This document shows, piece after piece, positions 31,823-37,970 of a stretch of 64,000 bases of DNA (its first letter is position 1; every line of letters starts with the position of its first letter). A program made the translations under genes and the position numbers. The stretch spans positions 310,001-374,000 of the forward strand of contig NZ_FQYI01000001.1 of assembly GCF_900141665.1 (NCBI RefSeq), given 5' to 3'. The DNA comes from Cruoricaptor ignavus (GTDB lineage: Bacteria; Bacteroidota; Bacteroidia; Flavobacteriales; Weeksellaceae). The notes beneath the pieces were generated by a model. The model searched no databases, was not told the DNA's origin, and saw only the letters and a list, made by a program, of their open reading frames with translations.

Positions 31823-33100
31823 TTAAATTCCGAAGGCCTTTTTAATATCATCCACCCTGTCCAGCTTCTCCCATGTGAAAAATTCCAGATTTTCAATAGT
31901 TCTGGATGTCCCGTCCGGCTTGGTGAAGGTTTTGGTCTCCACCTTATGCTCGCGCCCCATGTGGCCGTACGCCGCCGTCACCTGATAGATTGGGTTGCGA
32001 AGCTTCAGATTTTGCTCGATAGCATAAGGCCGAAGGTCGAAAAGCGCATTGATTTTCTCCGCAATCTCCCCGTCGGTAAGCTCTACTTTGGCGGTGCCGT
32101 AGGTATCCACAAAGAGGCCGCACGGCTGCGAAACCCCGATGGCATAAGACACTTGCACCAGCACCTCATCTGCCACGCCTGCGGCTACCAGGTTTTTCGC
32201 GATGTGGCGCATGGCGTATGCCGCACTCCTGTCCACCTTGGAGGGGTCTTTTCCGGAGAATGCACCTCCGCCGTGCGCCCCCTTACCGCCGTAGGTATCC
32301 ACAATGATTTTACGACCAGTGAGCCCCGTGTCCCCATGCGGGCCGCCAATTACAAACTTGCCGGTCGGGTTGATGTGGTAAGTGATTTCGTTTGTAAAAA
32401 GCCTGGCGATTTCCGGCTTCTGGCGAGCGCGCACCGCAGGGATGAGAATGTTGATAATGTCACTTTTAATTTTTTCCAGCATTGCGCCCTCGCTGGCGAA
32501 CTCGTCGTGCTGCGTGGATACCACGATGGTATCGATGCGCTGCGGTTTATGATCATCGGAATACTCTATGGTCACCTGCGCCTTGGCATCCGGGCGGAGG
32601 TAAGGTATGGTGCCGTTTTTGCGAAGGTTGGCGAGTTCGTACATCAACTCGTGGGCTAGGTCCAGCGCAAGGGGCAGATAGTTTTCCGTCTCGCTAGTAG
32701 CGTAGCCGAACATCATCCCCTGGTCGCCGGCGCCCTGCTTCTCGGCCTTGGTTTCAAAATCATCGTCCTCGGAGGCGCGGTCCACGCCCTGATTGATGTC
32801 TCCGGACTGCTCGTGGATGGCGGAGATGATGCCGCAGGAATCGCCGCTGAACATATATTCGCCCTTGGTGTAGCCAATATCATTAATGACTTTGCGTGCG
32901 ATGGACTGCACATCCAGGTAGGTTTCGGACTTTACTTCGCCGGCGAGCACTACCTGCCCGGTGGTGACGAGGGTTTCGCAAGCCACTTTGGACTGCGGGT
33001 CGAAGGCCAGGAAGTTGTCAATCAGCGCGTCGGAGATCTGGTCTGCTACTTTGTCCGGATGCCCTTCGGATACGGATTCTGATGTGAATAGGTAGGACAT
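31823..33100 (-). CDS. metK: S-adenosylmethionine synthetase
   Basis: A 425-residue cytosolic enzyme that makes S-adenosylmethionine from methionine and ATP. Signatures: [18 protein letters not shown] (about residues 11-28), [14 protein letters not shown] (about 126-139) and the glycine-rich [19 protein letters not shown] (about 277-295). It is slightly longer than the E. coli enzyme (384 residues), usual in Bacteroidetes. The leader carries a SAM-II class riboswitch, so the product should repress its own synthesis. A terminator closes the gene. Confidence 0.97.
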
Positions 33101-33102
33101 AA

Positions 33103-33160
33103 TTTCTTTTGTTTTTAAAATTTGCCCCGCGTGGATTTAACTGCGCAACTACAAAAGAAA
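33103..33160 (-). promoter_or_regulatory. Inverted repeat before metK, possible riboswitch switch helix
   Basis: Ten-base perfect arms (33103-33112 and 33151-33160) would pair in the metK mRNA and end 2 nt before the ATG, hiding the start region. A second candidate helix, CTAAAA (33178-33183) with TTTTAG (33161-33166) on the minus strand, uses bases that also belong to the SAM-II pseudoknot. The two could form the on/off choice. Inference from pairing only. Confidence 0.5.
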
Positions 33161-33171
33161 CTAAAATAGAG

Positions 33172-33227
33172 AATCTGTTTTAGCATTTTTTTGCGAGGTT
33201 GCAAGCAGTCAAATTTTTCCTCGGGGT
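33172..33227 (-). ncRNA. SAM-II class riboswitch in the metK leader
   Basis: On the minus strand, P1 is CGAGG (33219-33223) with CCTCG (33194-33198). The loop contains ATTTGACTGCTTGCAA, and the tail reads AAAATGCTAAAACAG. These match the SAM-II features I know: an AUUU-rich loop, UUGCAA before the 3' arm of P1, and the AAAUGCUAAA tail that makes the pseudoknot. CTG (33206-33208) can pair with CAG (33175-33177). The transcription start predicted from the -7 box lies only about 5 nt upstream of the aptamer. The ligand would be S-adenosylmethionine, the product of metK. Confidence 0.82.
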
Positions 33228-33237
33228 TTTATAGCGG

Positions 33238-33245
33238 CAAAGGTA
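33238..33245 (-). promoter_or_regulatory. -7 box of metK
   Basis: TACCTTTG on the minus strand. It places the transcript start right at the SAM-II aptamer. Confidence 0.6.
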
Positions 33246-33295
33246 GTTTCTTTTTTTTAATCTGAAAAGTCTCCTTTATGATTTTTGGCAGGTGT

Positions 33296-33405
33296 GGGCC
33301 GATGCGCGCGCCCCGGATAGCAGCGGATACCCCGCAGGGAGCCGCGGAGCGAAGCGGAGCGGCGATACGAGGAGTAGGAGCGGATAGCCGGAAATGGCGC
33401 CCAAA
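33296..33405. other. GC-rich structured intergenic element
   Basis: Part of the gap 33101-33486, which holds the metK leader, this element and the region before the catalase-like gene. It contains AGCGGATA twice (33322-33329, 33379-33386), a GCCGC/GCGGC stem (33341-33345, 33359-33363) and ends near GGCGCCCAAATTATT. It recalls GC-rich spacers I associate with Bacteroidetes genomes, but I cannot confirm that here. No coding frame is convincing. Confidence 0.5.
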
Positions 33406-33486
33406 TTATTGCCGAACGCGGGGATGCCCATCGAAGTTGTAAAAATTTTAAAGTAAATTTGATTTCTGAAACTAAAAAATACCGCC

Positions 33487-34791
33487 ATGGAGGGTAATAA
33501 TATACGGAACAAGGCGCGCACGGAGCAGCCAAAACCGGTAATGAGCGATTTCCTGCTGCAGGAGGAGCTTGCGGGCTTCGTACGGGAGCGCATCCCGGAG
33601 CGCGTGGTATTCGCCGGGGGGGCGGGGGCGTACGGCACATTCATCACCTCGGCGGACCTGTCTCGCTACACAAGGGCGGAACTTTTTTCCAAAGCTGGGA
33701 ACAGCTGCCGGATTTTCGCGAGATTTTCTTCTTTTTTCAATGAGAAAGGCACGCCGGACGGGGTGCGGGATGTGCGTGGATTCGCAGTGAAATTTATGCC
33801 GGAGGGCGGCGTGTGGGATCTTGCGGGGCAGAATTTCCCTGTGAGCTTCGTGGAAGATCCGGGGAAGTTTAAAACCCTGGTGCATGTGCTGAAGAAGAAT
33901 CCCGAAACGAATACGGAGAACCGCGCCGCGGCCTGGGAGTTTTTTTCGCAGAATCCGGAGACGCTGCACCTGCTGCTGATGCTTTTTTCCGGGCGGGGGA
34001 TCCCGGCGGGATATGGCAATATGGATGGCTTCGGGGTGAATACTTTTTCCTTCGTTAATGAAAATGAGGAAATTTTCTGGGTGAAATTTCACCTGAAAAC
34101 CCGGCAGGGCATAAGGAATTCCGAAGAGGAAAATCCCGGCAGGCTGAATTTTGCGCAGTCGCTGGTGGATGATGTATCCTCGGGGAATTTCCCGAAGTGG
34201 AAAATGTATGCGCAAATAATGACGCCAGAGCAGGCACACGCGCTGGACTGGAACCCTTTTGACCCGACAAGGGTATGGCCGCACGGGGATTTCCCGCTTG
34301 CCGAGCTTGGCGAACTGGAACTGAGCAGCCTGCCAAAAAATTATTTCGAGGAAGTGGAGAAAGCCGCATTCTCCCCTACCAATCTCATCGACGGTATCGG
34401 GATCTCCCCGGACAGAAATCTTCAGGCGCGCCTCTTTGCCTACCGAGACGCGCAGCGCTACAGGCTGGGCACGCAGGCTGCGCAGCCACAGAGCAGCAAC
34501 CCCCATATCCTCGGAGATTTCTCGCAGTACGAAACGGTTTCCTATCCGCAAGATCCCTACACCCAGTGCGGCTTATTCTATACCAAGGCCCTGAAAACGG
34601 ATGAGGAACGCAGCAGGCTTGCCGAGAACATTGTGAAAAGTATGATAGAAATCTCCTCCCCGCGTAAAAATGATATTATTTTCCGGCAACTGTGCCACTT
34701 TTTCCGCGCAAATGTGGAGCTCGGGATGAAGATTTCAACCGGGCTGGGTATCAATATTGATATGAATATGATGAGCCACGCGGGTTTTTAG
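33487..34791 (+). CDS. Catalase-fold haem protein with Phe in place of the distal His
   Basis: A 434-residue protein of the catalase family, with the catalase order of blocks: RERIPERVV (34-41), RFSSFFNEKGTPDGVRDVRG, ARLFAYRDAQRYRLG and NPFDPTRVWPHGDFP. The proximal haem-ligand Tyr319 and Asn116 are kept. The catalytic distal His, within RVVHA in true catalases, is Phe42 here (RVVFAGGAGAYGTF), coded by TTC. It is also shorter than usual catalases of about 480-500 residues. It probably binds haem but should not break down hydrogen peroxide normally; another haem chemistry is possible. Codons are GC-rich. The enoyl-CoA hydratase gene follows after 33 bases. Confidence 0.88.
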   Translation: MEGNNIRNKARTEQPKPVMSDFLLQEELAGFVRERIPERVVFAGGAGAYGTFITSADLSRYTRAELFSKAGNSCRIFARFSSFFNEKGTPDGVRDVRGFAVKFMPEGGVWDLAGQNFPVSFVEDPGKFKTLVHVLKKNPETNTENRAAAWEFFSQNPETLHLLLMLFSGRGIPAGYGNMDGFGVNTFSFVNENEEIFWVKFHLKTRQGIRNSEEENPGRLNFAQSLVDDVSSGNFPKWKMYAQIMTPEQAHALDWNPFDPTRVWPHGDFPLAELGELELSSLPKNYFEEVEKAAFSPTNLIDGIGISPDRNLQARLFAYRDAQRYRLGTQAAQPQSSNPHILGDFSQYETVSYPQDPYTQCGLFYTKALKTDEERSRLAENIVKSMIEISSPRKNDIIFRQLCHFFRANVELGMKISTGLGINIDMNMMSHAGF

Positions 34792-34824: not shown

Positions 34825-35592
34825 ATGAATTTCGAAAATATCATCACAGAAAAAGATGGAAGAATCGCCACAGTCACCATCACCCGGCCGCAGGCACTGA
34901 ATGCACTGAATGCCGCGACCATCCGGGAACTCAGCGAAGCATTTGAGGAACTTGGAAATGATGCGGATGTGCGCGCCATCATCCTGACAGGGGCGGGAGA
35001 AAAATCCTTCGTCGCGGGAGCGGACATCAAGGAATTCAGTGATTTTGGCGAAGAAAAGGCCACCGAACTTTCCAGAAAAGGGCACGAAAGCCTTTTTAAC
35101 AAAATCGAAAATCTGAAAAAACCAGTGATTGCGGCGGTAAACGGTTTCGCGCTGGGCGGCGGGCTGGAACTGGCGATGAGCTGCCACATCCGCTACGCTT
35201 CGCAGAATGCGAAACTCGGCCTGCCAGAAGTTACCCTTGGGTTAATTCCTGGCTATGGCGGCACGCAAAGGCTGCCGAGGCTGGTGGGCAAAGGGCTTGC
35301 AAACGAAATGATTTTTTCCGCGAAAATGATTTCTGCCGAAAGAGCGAAGGAAATTGGCCTGGTAAATGAAGTATTTTCTGCGGAGGATCTTCTGCCAAAA
35401 GCCAAAGAACTCGCGGAAACCATCACGAAAAATTCACCGATGGCTATTGCCAAAGCCATCGAAGCCGTAAACCTTTCGGACGGCCCAGAAGGTTTTGAAC
35501 GGGAAATAAAATCCTTTGGCGAACTTTTCGAAATGGATGACAAGAAAGAGGGCGTGGCTGCATTTTTGGAAAAAAGGAAGCCGGAATTTTAG
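34825..35592 (+). CDS. Enoyl-CoA hydratase/isomerase family protein
   Basis: A 255-residue crotonase-fold enzyme. The oxyanion-hole motifs are AGADIKEF (about residues 66-73) and NGFALGGGLELAMSCHIRYA (about 107-126). The two catalytic glutamates are in GGGLELA and LPEVTLGLIPGYGGTQ. It adds water to trans-2-enoyl-CoA in fatty acid or amino acid breakdown; the exact substrate is not clear. Length is normal. A 25-codon frame and the dCMP deaminase gene follow directly. Confidence 0.92.
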   Translation: MNFENIITEKDGRIATVTITRPQALNALNAATIRELSEAFEELGNDADVRAIILTGAGEKSFVAGADIKEFSDFGEEKATELSRKGHESLFNKIENLKKPVIAAVNGFALGGGLELAMSCHIRYASQNAKLGLPEVTLGLIPGYGGTQRLPRLVGKGLANEMIFSAKMISAERAKEIGLVNEVFSAEDLLPKAKELAETITKNSPMAIAKAIEAVNLSDGPEGFEREIKSFGELFEMDDKKEGVAAFLEKRKPEF

Positions 35593-35675: not shown

Positions 35676-36113
35676 TTGACCATTACAAAATTCGACAAAG
35701 CATATCTGAAAATGGCTCAGGAATGGGCGAAACTTTCCTATTGCCAGAGGAAAAAAGTAGGCGCGCTCATCGTGAAAGATAGGATGATCATCTCCGATGG
35801 GTACAACGGGACGCCTTCAGGCTTCGAAAATGAGTGCGAGGATGAAAGCGGAAATACCCATTGGTATGTGCTTCACGCTGAAGCCAACGCGATCCTGAAA
35901 CTGGCTAAGTCCACACAGTCTGCAGAAGGTGCCACTCTCTACCTCACTCTTTCGCCGTGCCGAGAGTGCAGCAAACTCGTGCTGCAGGCGGGCATCCGAA
36001 GGCTTGTCTACATCGATGATTACTCGGATTGCAGCGGTATTGCCTTCCTGAAAGATCGGGGCGTGGAGGTATTGCAAATCCCGCAAATACAACTGATGAG
36101 CGACGAAATATGA
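35676..36113 (+). CDS. dCMP/cytidine deaminase family protein
   Basis: A 145-residue zinc enzyme starting at TTG (35676). The zinc and catalytic motifs are LHAEANAIL (His and Glu, about residues 68-76) and LSPCRECSKLV (two Cys, about 91-101), the pattern of deoxycytidylate deaminases (ComEB type) that feed dUMP and then dTMP synthesis. VGALIVKDRMIISDGYNGTP near the start is also typical. It overlaps xerD by 4 bases (ATGA), so the two are coupled. Confidence 0.88.
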   Translation: MTITKFDKAYLKMAQEWAKLSYCQRKKVGALIVKDRMIISDGYNGTPSGFENECEDESGNTHWYVLHAEANAILKLAKSTQSAEGATLYLTLSPCRECSKLVLQAGIRRLVYIDDYSDCSGIAFLKDRGVEVLQIPQIQLMSDEI

Positions 36114-37006
36114 GGTGGGATGATAGTATTTCTGATTTTGAAAACTACCTGAAGTTCGAGCGAAATCTTTCTCAAAACACCGTCGCCGCCTACCGCCGCG
36201 ATGTCGTTAAACTGAAAAATCTCGCTGAAGACACCTCGCCCGAAACCCTCAGCTACGAGCAGCTGCAGGAGATACTGTACAGGCTCAGCCGGGAGGGCCT
36301 CGGCGAGAGGACGCAGGCACGCTGGATTTCCTCGGTGAAAACCTTTTTTAAATGGATGCTGGAGGAGGATTTCCGCAGTGACAATCCCTCCGCCCTGCTG
36401 GAAACGCCTAAGCTCGGCAAGTATCTGCCCGATACGCTCAGCTTTAACGAAATAGAAAAAATGATCGCCGCCATAGACCGGAGCGAGCCCACTGGCGAGC
36501 GGAACCGCTGCATAGTGGAGGTACTCTACGGCTGCGGATTGCGCGTCTCCGAGCTGGTAAATCTGAAAATTTCAGACATCAATTTTAAAGAAAACTACAT
36601 CCGCGTGCTGGGCAAGGGTTCCAAAATCCGGCTGGTGCCGCTTGCCGATTTCACGGCAGAAGTCATTACCGCTTACAAAACCGGCGCACGGGCAGCGGGC
36701 ATCATTCAGGCAAATTTTGAAGACTTCCTTTTCCTGAACAGAAACGGGCGACCGCTCACCAGAAATATGGTTTTCATCATCATAAAAAATCTCGCCGCGC
36801 AGGCGGGCATCCGCAAGAACATTTCGCCACACACCTTCCGCCACTCCTACGCCACGCACCTGCTGCAGAACGGCGCAGACCTCCGGTTTATCCAAGAAAT
36901 GCTAGGCCACAGCAGCATTACCACCACAGAAATTTACACACACCTGCAGACCAGGGAGCTGCGCGATGCGATCCTGAACTGCCACCCAAGAAATAAAAAA
37001 ATATGA
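36110..37006 (+). CDS. xerD: Tyrosine recombinase XerD
   Basis: 298 residues from the ATG at 36110, which overlaps the deaminase stop by 4 bases. The N-terminal core-binding domain (about residues 1-90) includes FERNLSQNTVAAYRRDV. The catalytic domain has Arg (GLRVSELV), Lys (GKGSKIRLVPL), His and Arg (HTFRHSYATHLLQNG), His (LGHSS) and the nucleophile Tyr (TTEIYTHLQ). XerD with XerC resolves chromosome dimers at dif. Length and N-terminus fit XerD rather than a phage integrase. It overlaps the Nudix gene by 4 bases. Confidence 0.92.
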   Translation: MRWDDSISDFENYLKFERNLSQNTVAAYRRDVVKLKNLAEDTSPETLSYEQLQEILYRLSREGLGERTQARWISSVKTFFKWMLEEDFRSDNPSALLETPKLGKYLPDTLSFNEIEKMIAAIDRSEPTGERNRCIVEVLYGCGLRVSELVNLKISDINFKENYIRVLGKGSKIRLVPLADFTAEVITAYKTGARAAGIIQANFEDFLFLNRNGRPLTRNMVFIIIKNLAAQAGIRKNISPHTFRHSYATHLLQNGADLRFIQEMLGHSSITTTEIYTHLQTRELRDAILNCHPRNKKI

Positions 37007-37515
37007 AGCAAATGAGATTCTGTCCGCAATGCGGCAAAAAAAGCCTCCGCTGGGATGGCGAGAAAAAATGGGACTGCCCGGATTGCGATTTTGTTCTGTT
37101 TCACAACTGTGCGGCGGCAGTGGCCGTGGTAGTGAAGTGCGGCGAGGAAATATTGCTGACGCGTAGAAACCAGGAGCCCTGCAAGGGGAAGCTGGATCTG
37201 GCTGGGGGCTTCTCCGACCCCGGGGAATCGGCTGAGGAAACCTGCGCCAGGGAGCTGCGGGAGGAACTGAAACTAGAAGCCGCGCCGGGGGATTTTAAAA
37301 TCCTCTGCACTATGCACAATGTGTATCATTACAAAGGCATCGACTACAATACGCTTGATATTTTCTTTGAGCTGAATCTCGCGGAGAAACCGGATCTCAC
37401 CCTTGCCGAAGAAGAAATCGGAGAAGTACTCTGGCTAAAGAAATCTGAAATAAAGCCGGAAGAAATCGCCTTTGAATCCCAGAAAAAATTCTTCCGGGAA
37501 TATCTTGCTCAGTAG
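37003..37515 (+). CDS. Nudix hydrolase with N-terminal zinc ribbon
   Basis: A 170-residue protein. Two CxxC pairs near the N-terminus (CPQCGKK and CPDC, about residues 7-30) form a zinc ribbon. The Nudix box, GGFSDPGESAEETCARELRE, then E-L (about 67-88), fits the G-x5-E-x7-R-E-U-x-E-E pattern and binds the metal. Similar two-domain proteins hydrolyse NADH or other nucleoside diphosphates; the substrate is not settled here. It overlaps xerD (ATGA) and, tail-to-tail, the haem-binding protein gene by 7 bases. Confidence 0.9.
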   Translation: MKQMRFCPQCGKKSLRWDGEKKWDCPDCDFVLFHNCAAAVAVVVKCGEEILLTRRNQEPCKGKLDLAGGFSDPGESAEETCARELREELKLEAAPGDFKILCTMHNVYHYKGIDYNTLDIFFELNLAEKPDLTLAEEEIGEVLWLKKSEIKPEEIAFESQKKFFREYLAQ

Positions 37516-37970
37516 TTGCCGCTCTTCAGCAGCCCGTCGAAATAGCTGACCAGCAGCTTGCTCTGTGCCTCGCTGAGCCGCGCATCGGGATGCTGAGCCA
37601 CATAGCCCGGCAGCGGCATCCGCTTCTCGATAATGTCTGCCGAGGAATTCTGAAGCATATTTTGCTTCAGGTAATCATTGTAAGTGCCCCACTCGGAAAA
37701 ATTTAGGTGGCGGCGGCCGGAATTGATGTGATTTTTTAATGACCAGGAAATTGGCGCTACATAAGCATAGTCGGGGTAAACGGTCTCGTTAGAGTGGCAG
37801 TCGTAGCAGGAATTTTTCAGCAGCTCGGCGATTTCCGGCGGAGTCTGCATCAGGTCTATGAAATTTTCACTTTTTTTCACCGGCTTATTGGTTCTGTCTA
37901 CCGGGATGAACTGAATGAGCGCAAAAACAATCAGCGACCAGTAGAGTATGTCAAGAAGTTTTTTCATCAT
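37509..37970 (-). CDS. Haem-binding domain protein, membrane-anchored
   Basis: A 153-residue protein. One N-terminal membrane anchor (LLDILYWSLIVFALIQFI) is followed by a periplasmic domain with a CYDCH haem c motif (Cys55, Cys58, His59), the pattern of the bacterial haem-binding domain family. A C-terminal MPLPGYVAQHPDARLSEAQ suits an axial Met ligand. It probably carries electrons or senses redox state. Its start lies in the last 20 bases of the Ig-like lipoprotein gene, so it ends a long minus-strand run of envelope genes. Confidence 0.82.
   Translation of the reverse strand: MMKKLLDILYWSLIVFALIQFIPVDRTNKPVKKSENFIDLMQTPPEIAELLKNSCYDCHSNETVYPDYAYVAPISWSLKNHINSGRRHLNFSEWGTYNDYLKQNMLQNSSADIIEKRMPLPGYVAQHPDARLSEAQSKLLVSYFDGLLKSGNY

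Follow-up and report, generated by a model that had tools for sequence, protein, structure and literature searches.

A katA orthologue of Cruoricaptor ignavus that lacks the catalytic distal histidine, one of 13 such genes found at the same locus with the haem site retained

We analysed a window of 64,000 nucleotides from Cruoricaptor ignavus, in which an open reading frame of 434 codons and a stop codon lies at 33487..34791 on the plus strand. The frame has no internal stop, in agreement with the sequence-only reading, which had described it as clean. Its 434-residue product has the catalase fold and the Pfam Catalase domain (PF00199, E=1e-124), together with the Catalase-rel domain (PF06628, E=4.5e-8), and its nearest solved structures belong to clade-3 catalases, among them 4e37, 6pt7 and 3hb6. 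Structure prediction gave a pLDDT of 39 from four sequences and a mean of 64 from 12; the partial model obtained from the 12 sequences had catalases as its top matches (probability 1.00, TM about 0.5) and supplied no distances, the distal pocket being weakly modelled.

Downstream of the gene are an enoyl-CoA hydratase gene (ech, 34825..35592, plus strand) and then dCMP deaminase, xerD-type recombinase and NUDIX genes (35676..37515, plus strand); on the other side, across a gap of 386 bases (33101..33486), lies metK (31823..33100, minus strand). These genes were recognised as a conserved slot by comparison with relatives, in which the order is NUDIX-xerD-dCMP deaminase-ech-kat, then divergent oxyR-metK-omp-sigma-HAD hydrolase, some of the flanks being absent in some genera. 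The same slot holds the canonical, His-bearing katA and all 13 of the genes without the distal His described below (here called His-less), and the window has the entire slot except oxyR. Judged by alignment and gene order, the window gene is the organism's own katA, of clade-3 type, in its ancestral slot. A far paralogue is ruled out by the conserved chromosomal slot, and a sequencing error by the many co-located changes and the 12 further members. The other His-less genes tested, like the window gene, scored above the Pfam catalase cut-off.

In every other locus compared, the divergent oxyR occupies the position of the gap. It adjoins 12 of the 13 His-less genes, and OxyR retains both sensing cysteines in each of the four His-less loci inspected (L065-L068). 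No oxyR remnant was found in the 386-base gap of the window, and an OxyR query over the whole genome returned no match, the target being found in six of six control genomes. The downstream ech was ruled out as a functional partner, being an ordinary neighbour in canonical katA loci too. Within the metK-kat gap, the stretch at 33300-33400 is GC-rich, with recurring GCGGATA words, and resembles an intergenic repeat; no second copy of it was found within the window. Near the slot, a small protein encoded at 37509-37970 on the minus strand carries a CYDCH haem-binding-like motif.

To name residues we use human catalase numbering, in which we take the relevant positions to be His75, Val116, Asn148, Phe153 and Tyr358. 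In every alignment Phe42 of the window protein (codon TTC, 33610..33612, plus strand) is in register with the essential distal His75, as is Phe54 of 3hb6, so that the replacement described in the sequence-only reading is borne out. All 47 canonical catalase rows have His at this site, and none of the 26 slot orthologues, which were selected as His-bearing, has any other change there. The same reading had held that the catalytic Asn is kept as Asn116; that residue, however, aligns with human Asn149, and the position of Asn148, the first N of GNN, is taken by Gln115 (33829..33831). The alignments also place Phe83 (33733..33735) at the main-channel Val116 and Ser120 (33844..33846) at the gate Phe153, a residue whose role is discussed in PMC9687031; all these codons are on the plus strand. 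Thus, of His75, Val116, Asn148, Phe153 and Phe154, which are invariant in the 47 canonical rows, the window protein has lost four. The changes of Val116 and Phe153, together with the loss of most of the N-terminal arm and of about 45 residues of the wrapping loop, extend the list of losses given earlier.

Arg72, Arg112, Phe161, Arg354, Tyr358 and Arg365 are likewise invariant in the 47 canonical rows, and all six haem-holding residues are kept in the window protein. The proximal ligand is Tyr319 (34441..34443, plus strand), as had been read from the sequence, and the Phe stacked on the haem is unchanged. Moreover, the proximal Tyr, its Arg partner and the three propionate Args are kept in 13 of the 13 His-less members. 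With the haem-site residues intact, the protein very probably still binds haem, as first proposed.

The shortened wrapping loop comprises 40 residues between Tyr319 and Gln360 (34444..34563, plus strand), where canonical orthologues have 84-85, and Phe42 is preceded by just 41 residues. In catalases the N-terminal arm has 47-58 residues from a conserved Thr to the His and hooks the long wrapping loop, and arm and loop interlock between subunits (PMC9687031). Because of this interlock, the joint loss of arm and loop predicts a different oligomer, a monomer or dimer in place of the tetramer. With clade-3 small-subunit KatA (OxyR-linked; 4e37, 1m85) the window protein shares the fold, the proximal Tyr, the propionate Args and, in relatives, the oxyR-side locus, but it differs in having neither the distal His nor the catalytic Asn, in its changed channel Val and gate Phe, and in the cut-back arm and loop.

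We found slot genes without the distal His in 13 of 320 genomes of a Bacteroidota family, which gene content and genus sizes indicate to be Weeksellaceae; the 13 span six genera (g1, g3, g5, g23, g24 and g26). The residue at the His site is Phe in the window genome (G000) and in G306 and G320, Tyr in G002, G023, G241 and G300, Asn in G301, G307 and G324, Gly in G004, Ser in G310 and Ala in G252. The census combined a search of the 320 genomes, which gave at least five His-less genes among the matches listed, a re-search of lower-scoring genomes, which added eight, and a scan for the canonical motif, which 260 of the 320 contain; 13 is a lower bound, as only some of the motif-lacking genomes were opened. 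Of the rest, some have no KatA-like match, and others, for example most of genus g21, have matches chiefly of the strength expected for other types of catalase. A DNA pattern for Phe or Tyr, run over 396 genomes of the order and 395 of the phylum, matched only G000 and G023; this pattern misses Asn, Gly, Ser and Ala and cannot confine the trait to the family. The open-access literature searched contained no report of natural His-less catalases. Orthologues with His in close relatives had been named as evidence against the sequence-only reading, and most orthologues do carry His, including one that shares its genus with two His-less members; the idea survives this, since the residue has been lost in 13 genomes of six genera. 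The first trees suggested that the His-less proteins form one clade, but this is at odds with the flanking genes and with the positions taken when the other long branches are left out (see below).

What the loss of His does to activity is indicated by engineered proteins. The Proteus mirabilis variant His54Phe has the same substitution at the same position as Phe42, with which its Phe aligns, and its PDB entry is titled 'Inactive mutant H54F of Proteus mirabilis catalase' (3hb6). The HPII variant H128N is also called inactive (PMC9687031), and Asn is the state at the His site in three His-less members. By analogy, a loss of catalase activity is well supported. The Proteus protein, however, is a laboratory point mutant, whereas Phe42 is natural, is accompanied by other distal changes and belongs to a gene under selection.

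The likely interpretation is that katA has been converted, through repeated losses, into a haem-holding, peroxide-dead protein whose haem-bound function is retained. Replacements affect both distal residues (His and Asn), the channel Val and one gate Phe, and the loop and arm are cut back; lacking the acid-base His, the protein would not form compound I at a useful rate, and its catalase activity would be nil. Haem would still be bound through Tyr319, as expected because the haem site is frozen, and what selection keeps may be a haem-bound function that can do without dismutation, the likeliest candidate being the binding or buffering of haem in connection with peroxide. A peroxide-linked role is favoured because oxyR still adjoins 12 of the 13 His-less genes; oxyR is missing in the window genome, and control by peroxide therefore cannot be general. 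The breakdown of peroxide itself would be left to a second catalase, and another haem catalase with its His is present in 12 of the 13 genomes. The exception is G002, which has no PF00199 gene besides the His-less one and lacks PF00141 genes altogether; this genome may be without a working haem catalase, and there the argument from redundancy fails. The window genome itself encodes an intact catalase of the large-subunit type (clade 2) that keeps the distal His (L107:4047-6149, contig C20) and a distant catalase-family gene of 378 amino acids directly after a putative DyP-type peroxidase gene (L106:2361-4867, contig C9). In G196, an assembly 75% complete, both catalase matches (L118 and L135) have interrupted or short frames, probably through assembly errors.

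It is also conceivable, if rather unlikely, that a second catalase took over and left katA as an inactive and drifting remnant, the frame persisting as the losses are recent or as a misfolded catalase is harmful. The second haem catalase in 12 of the 13 genomes, the absence of oxyR from the window genome, the long branches of the His-less genes and the many different residues at the His site all agree with such drift. So does the rate of change: dN/dS was 0.175 for G023/G241 and 0.22 for G306/G320, two pairs that do not include the window gene, several-fold above the 0.03-0.07 of canonical kat and the 0.03-0.04 of oxyR and metK in the same genomes. Selection on the His-less genes is relaxed, but it is not neutral. 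Values still near 0.2 count against simple drift, as do the intact frames of all 13 His-less genes: when a canonical gene was taken to 50% identity by neutral simulation, it acquired a mean of 10 stops and a minimum of four, and the window gene has none. In g26, moreover, the His-less state has persisted through two or more species splits. Neither a broken frame nor a neutral dN/dS, the marks of a pseudogene, was found, the dN/dS coming from two close pairs without the window gene, and the earlier view that the gene is not decaying stands on the frames, the dN/dS of 0.18-0.22 in the two pairs and the stops expected from simulation.

The pattern of losses within the protein points the same way. 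Among the 182 core columns that do not vary across 26 canonical orthologues, the average column is lost in 2.9 of the 13 His-less members (His75 in all 13, by definition of the set), but the six haem columns show no loss in 78 instances, which again is hard to reconcile with a remnant. Six random invariant columns would all be untouched with P about 0.001, an optimistic value since related genomes are counted separately; with the first four His-less rows only, the test gave P 0.05.

A further possibility, which can be combined with any functional reading and which we regard as improbable, is that a single old His-less allele, of one or at most two origins, passed between genera by replacing the gene in the katA slot. 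The full protein tree joins 12 of the 13 His-less rows (90/90), and loss of loop residues and replacement of Val116 are common to members. However, end branches in this tree reach 3.6, where the median is 0.12, and the grouping of 12 rows is what long-branch attraction would give, so that it is unsafe as evidence of a single origin. On a tree of flanking proteins, built by a quick method, the His-less state requires seven changes, and the well-supported (starred) branches by themselves force five; G004 and G324 share their genus with the His-bearing G034. When six groups were each placed without the other His-less rows, three landed beside or near their flanking-gene neighbours: G300/306/320 with G322 and then G289, G324 with G034, and G023/241 with G034 and near G012. 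G307/301/310 only trended toward the g26 group, and G000, the window's own, and G252 took no resolved position. Constrained vertical placements were not rejected in any test made (p-AU 0.37, 0.37 and 0.66; 0.12 and 0.31 in an earlier set). Also at odds with one old allele, loop lengths differ among the His-less members (40-66) and one member has the His change alone. From these sequence comparisons, about seven independent losses of His appears to be the best estimate, with five as the floor under vertical descent.

The member with the His change alone, G324, suggests how conversion to a haem-holding protein may have begun. Among the tracked residues it has only His replaced by Asn, the channel Val, Asn148, both Phe residues and a loop of 85 residues being intact, whereas the other 12 members have also lost the equivalent of Val116, which is never replaced in the canonical rows compared, and 19-45 residues of the loop. 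Because of this one transitional genome, His was probably lost first, and the channel Val and wrapping loop afterwards. At the codon level, His to Tyr is one step and Tyr to Phe another, and the window's sister by flanking genes has Tyr (97/97 in one tree, unsupported in another, with SH-aLRT 9); the codon steps fit this order of events.

The catalase fold has been diverted from catalase work before, in the coral catalase-related allene oxide synthase and hydroperoxide lyase, and a new enzyme (a peroxygenase, a peroxidase or a hydroperoxide-processing enzyme acting on a bulkier substrate through the changed channel and short loop, the substrate giving the acid-base group) would accord with those precedents (PMC5617202), with the replacement of the channel Val in 12 of 13 members and with the peroxidatic activity gained by a yeast Val to Ala variant with a broader main channel (PMC9687031), but it is very unlikely, as the coral enzymes retain both the distal His and the Asn, with a chemical role for the His (PMC5617202), the residues at the His and Val sites vary between members, the window's changes to Phe would narrow the pocket rather than widen it, and no biosynthetic genes adjoin, ech being an ordinary neighbour of canonical katA. 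Since the coral enzymes keep both residues of the distal His/Thr/Asn set that the window protein has replaced (Phe42, Gln115), they are not models for it.

We favour, then, a peroxide-dead protein that still holds haem. In haem catalases the distal His is regarded as essential, and its repeated loss in the same slot suggests a second, retained job for haem in place of peroxide breakdown. More tentatively, with the odds somewhat against the full proposal, there may have been some seven conversions in the family, all at this one locus, each yielding a peroxide-dead haem protein that selection maintains for a new role, be it the buffering of haem, the sensing of gas or peroxide together with OxyR, or an oxidation assisted by the substrate. 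The His-less genes form a graded natural series, from His replaced by Asn alone up to heavily remodelled Phe, Tyr, Gly, Ser or Ala forms, with the haem site frozen throughout, and this series lets one ask what a peroxide-dead catalase is kept for. It also carries a warning for annotation, as His-less genes would count as functional katA, including in G002. If the interpretation is true, the family holds a natural repeated experiment in which an enzyme that ranks among the most conserved known was turned into a pseudoenzyme.
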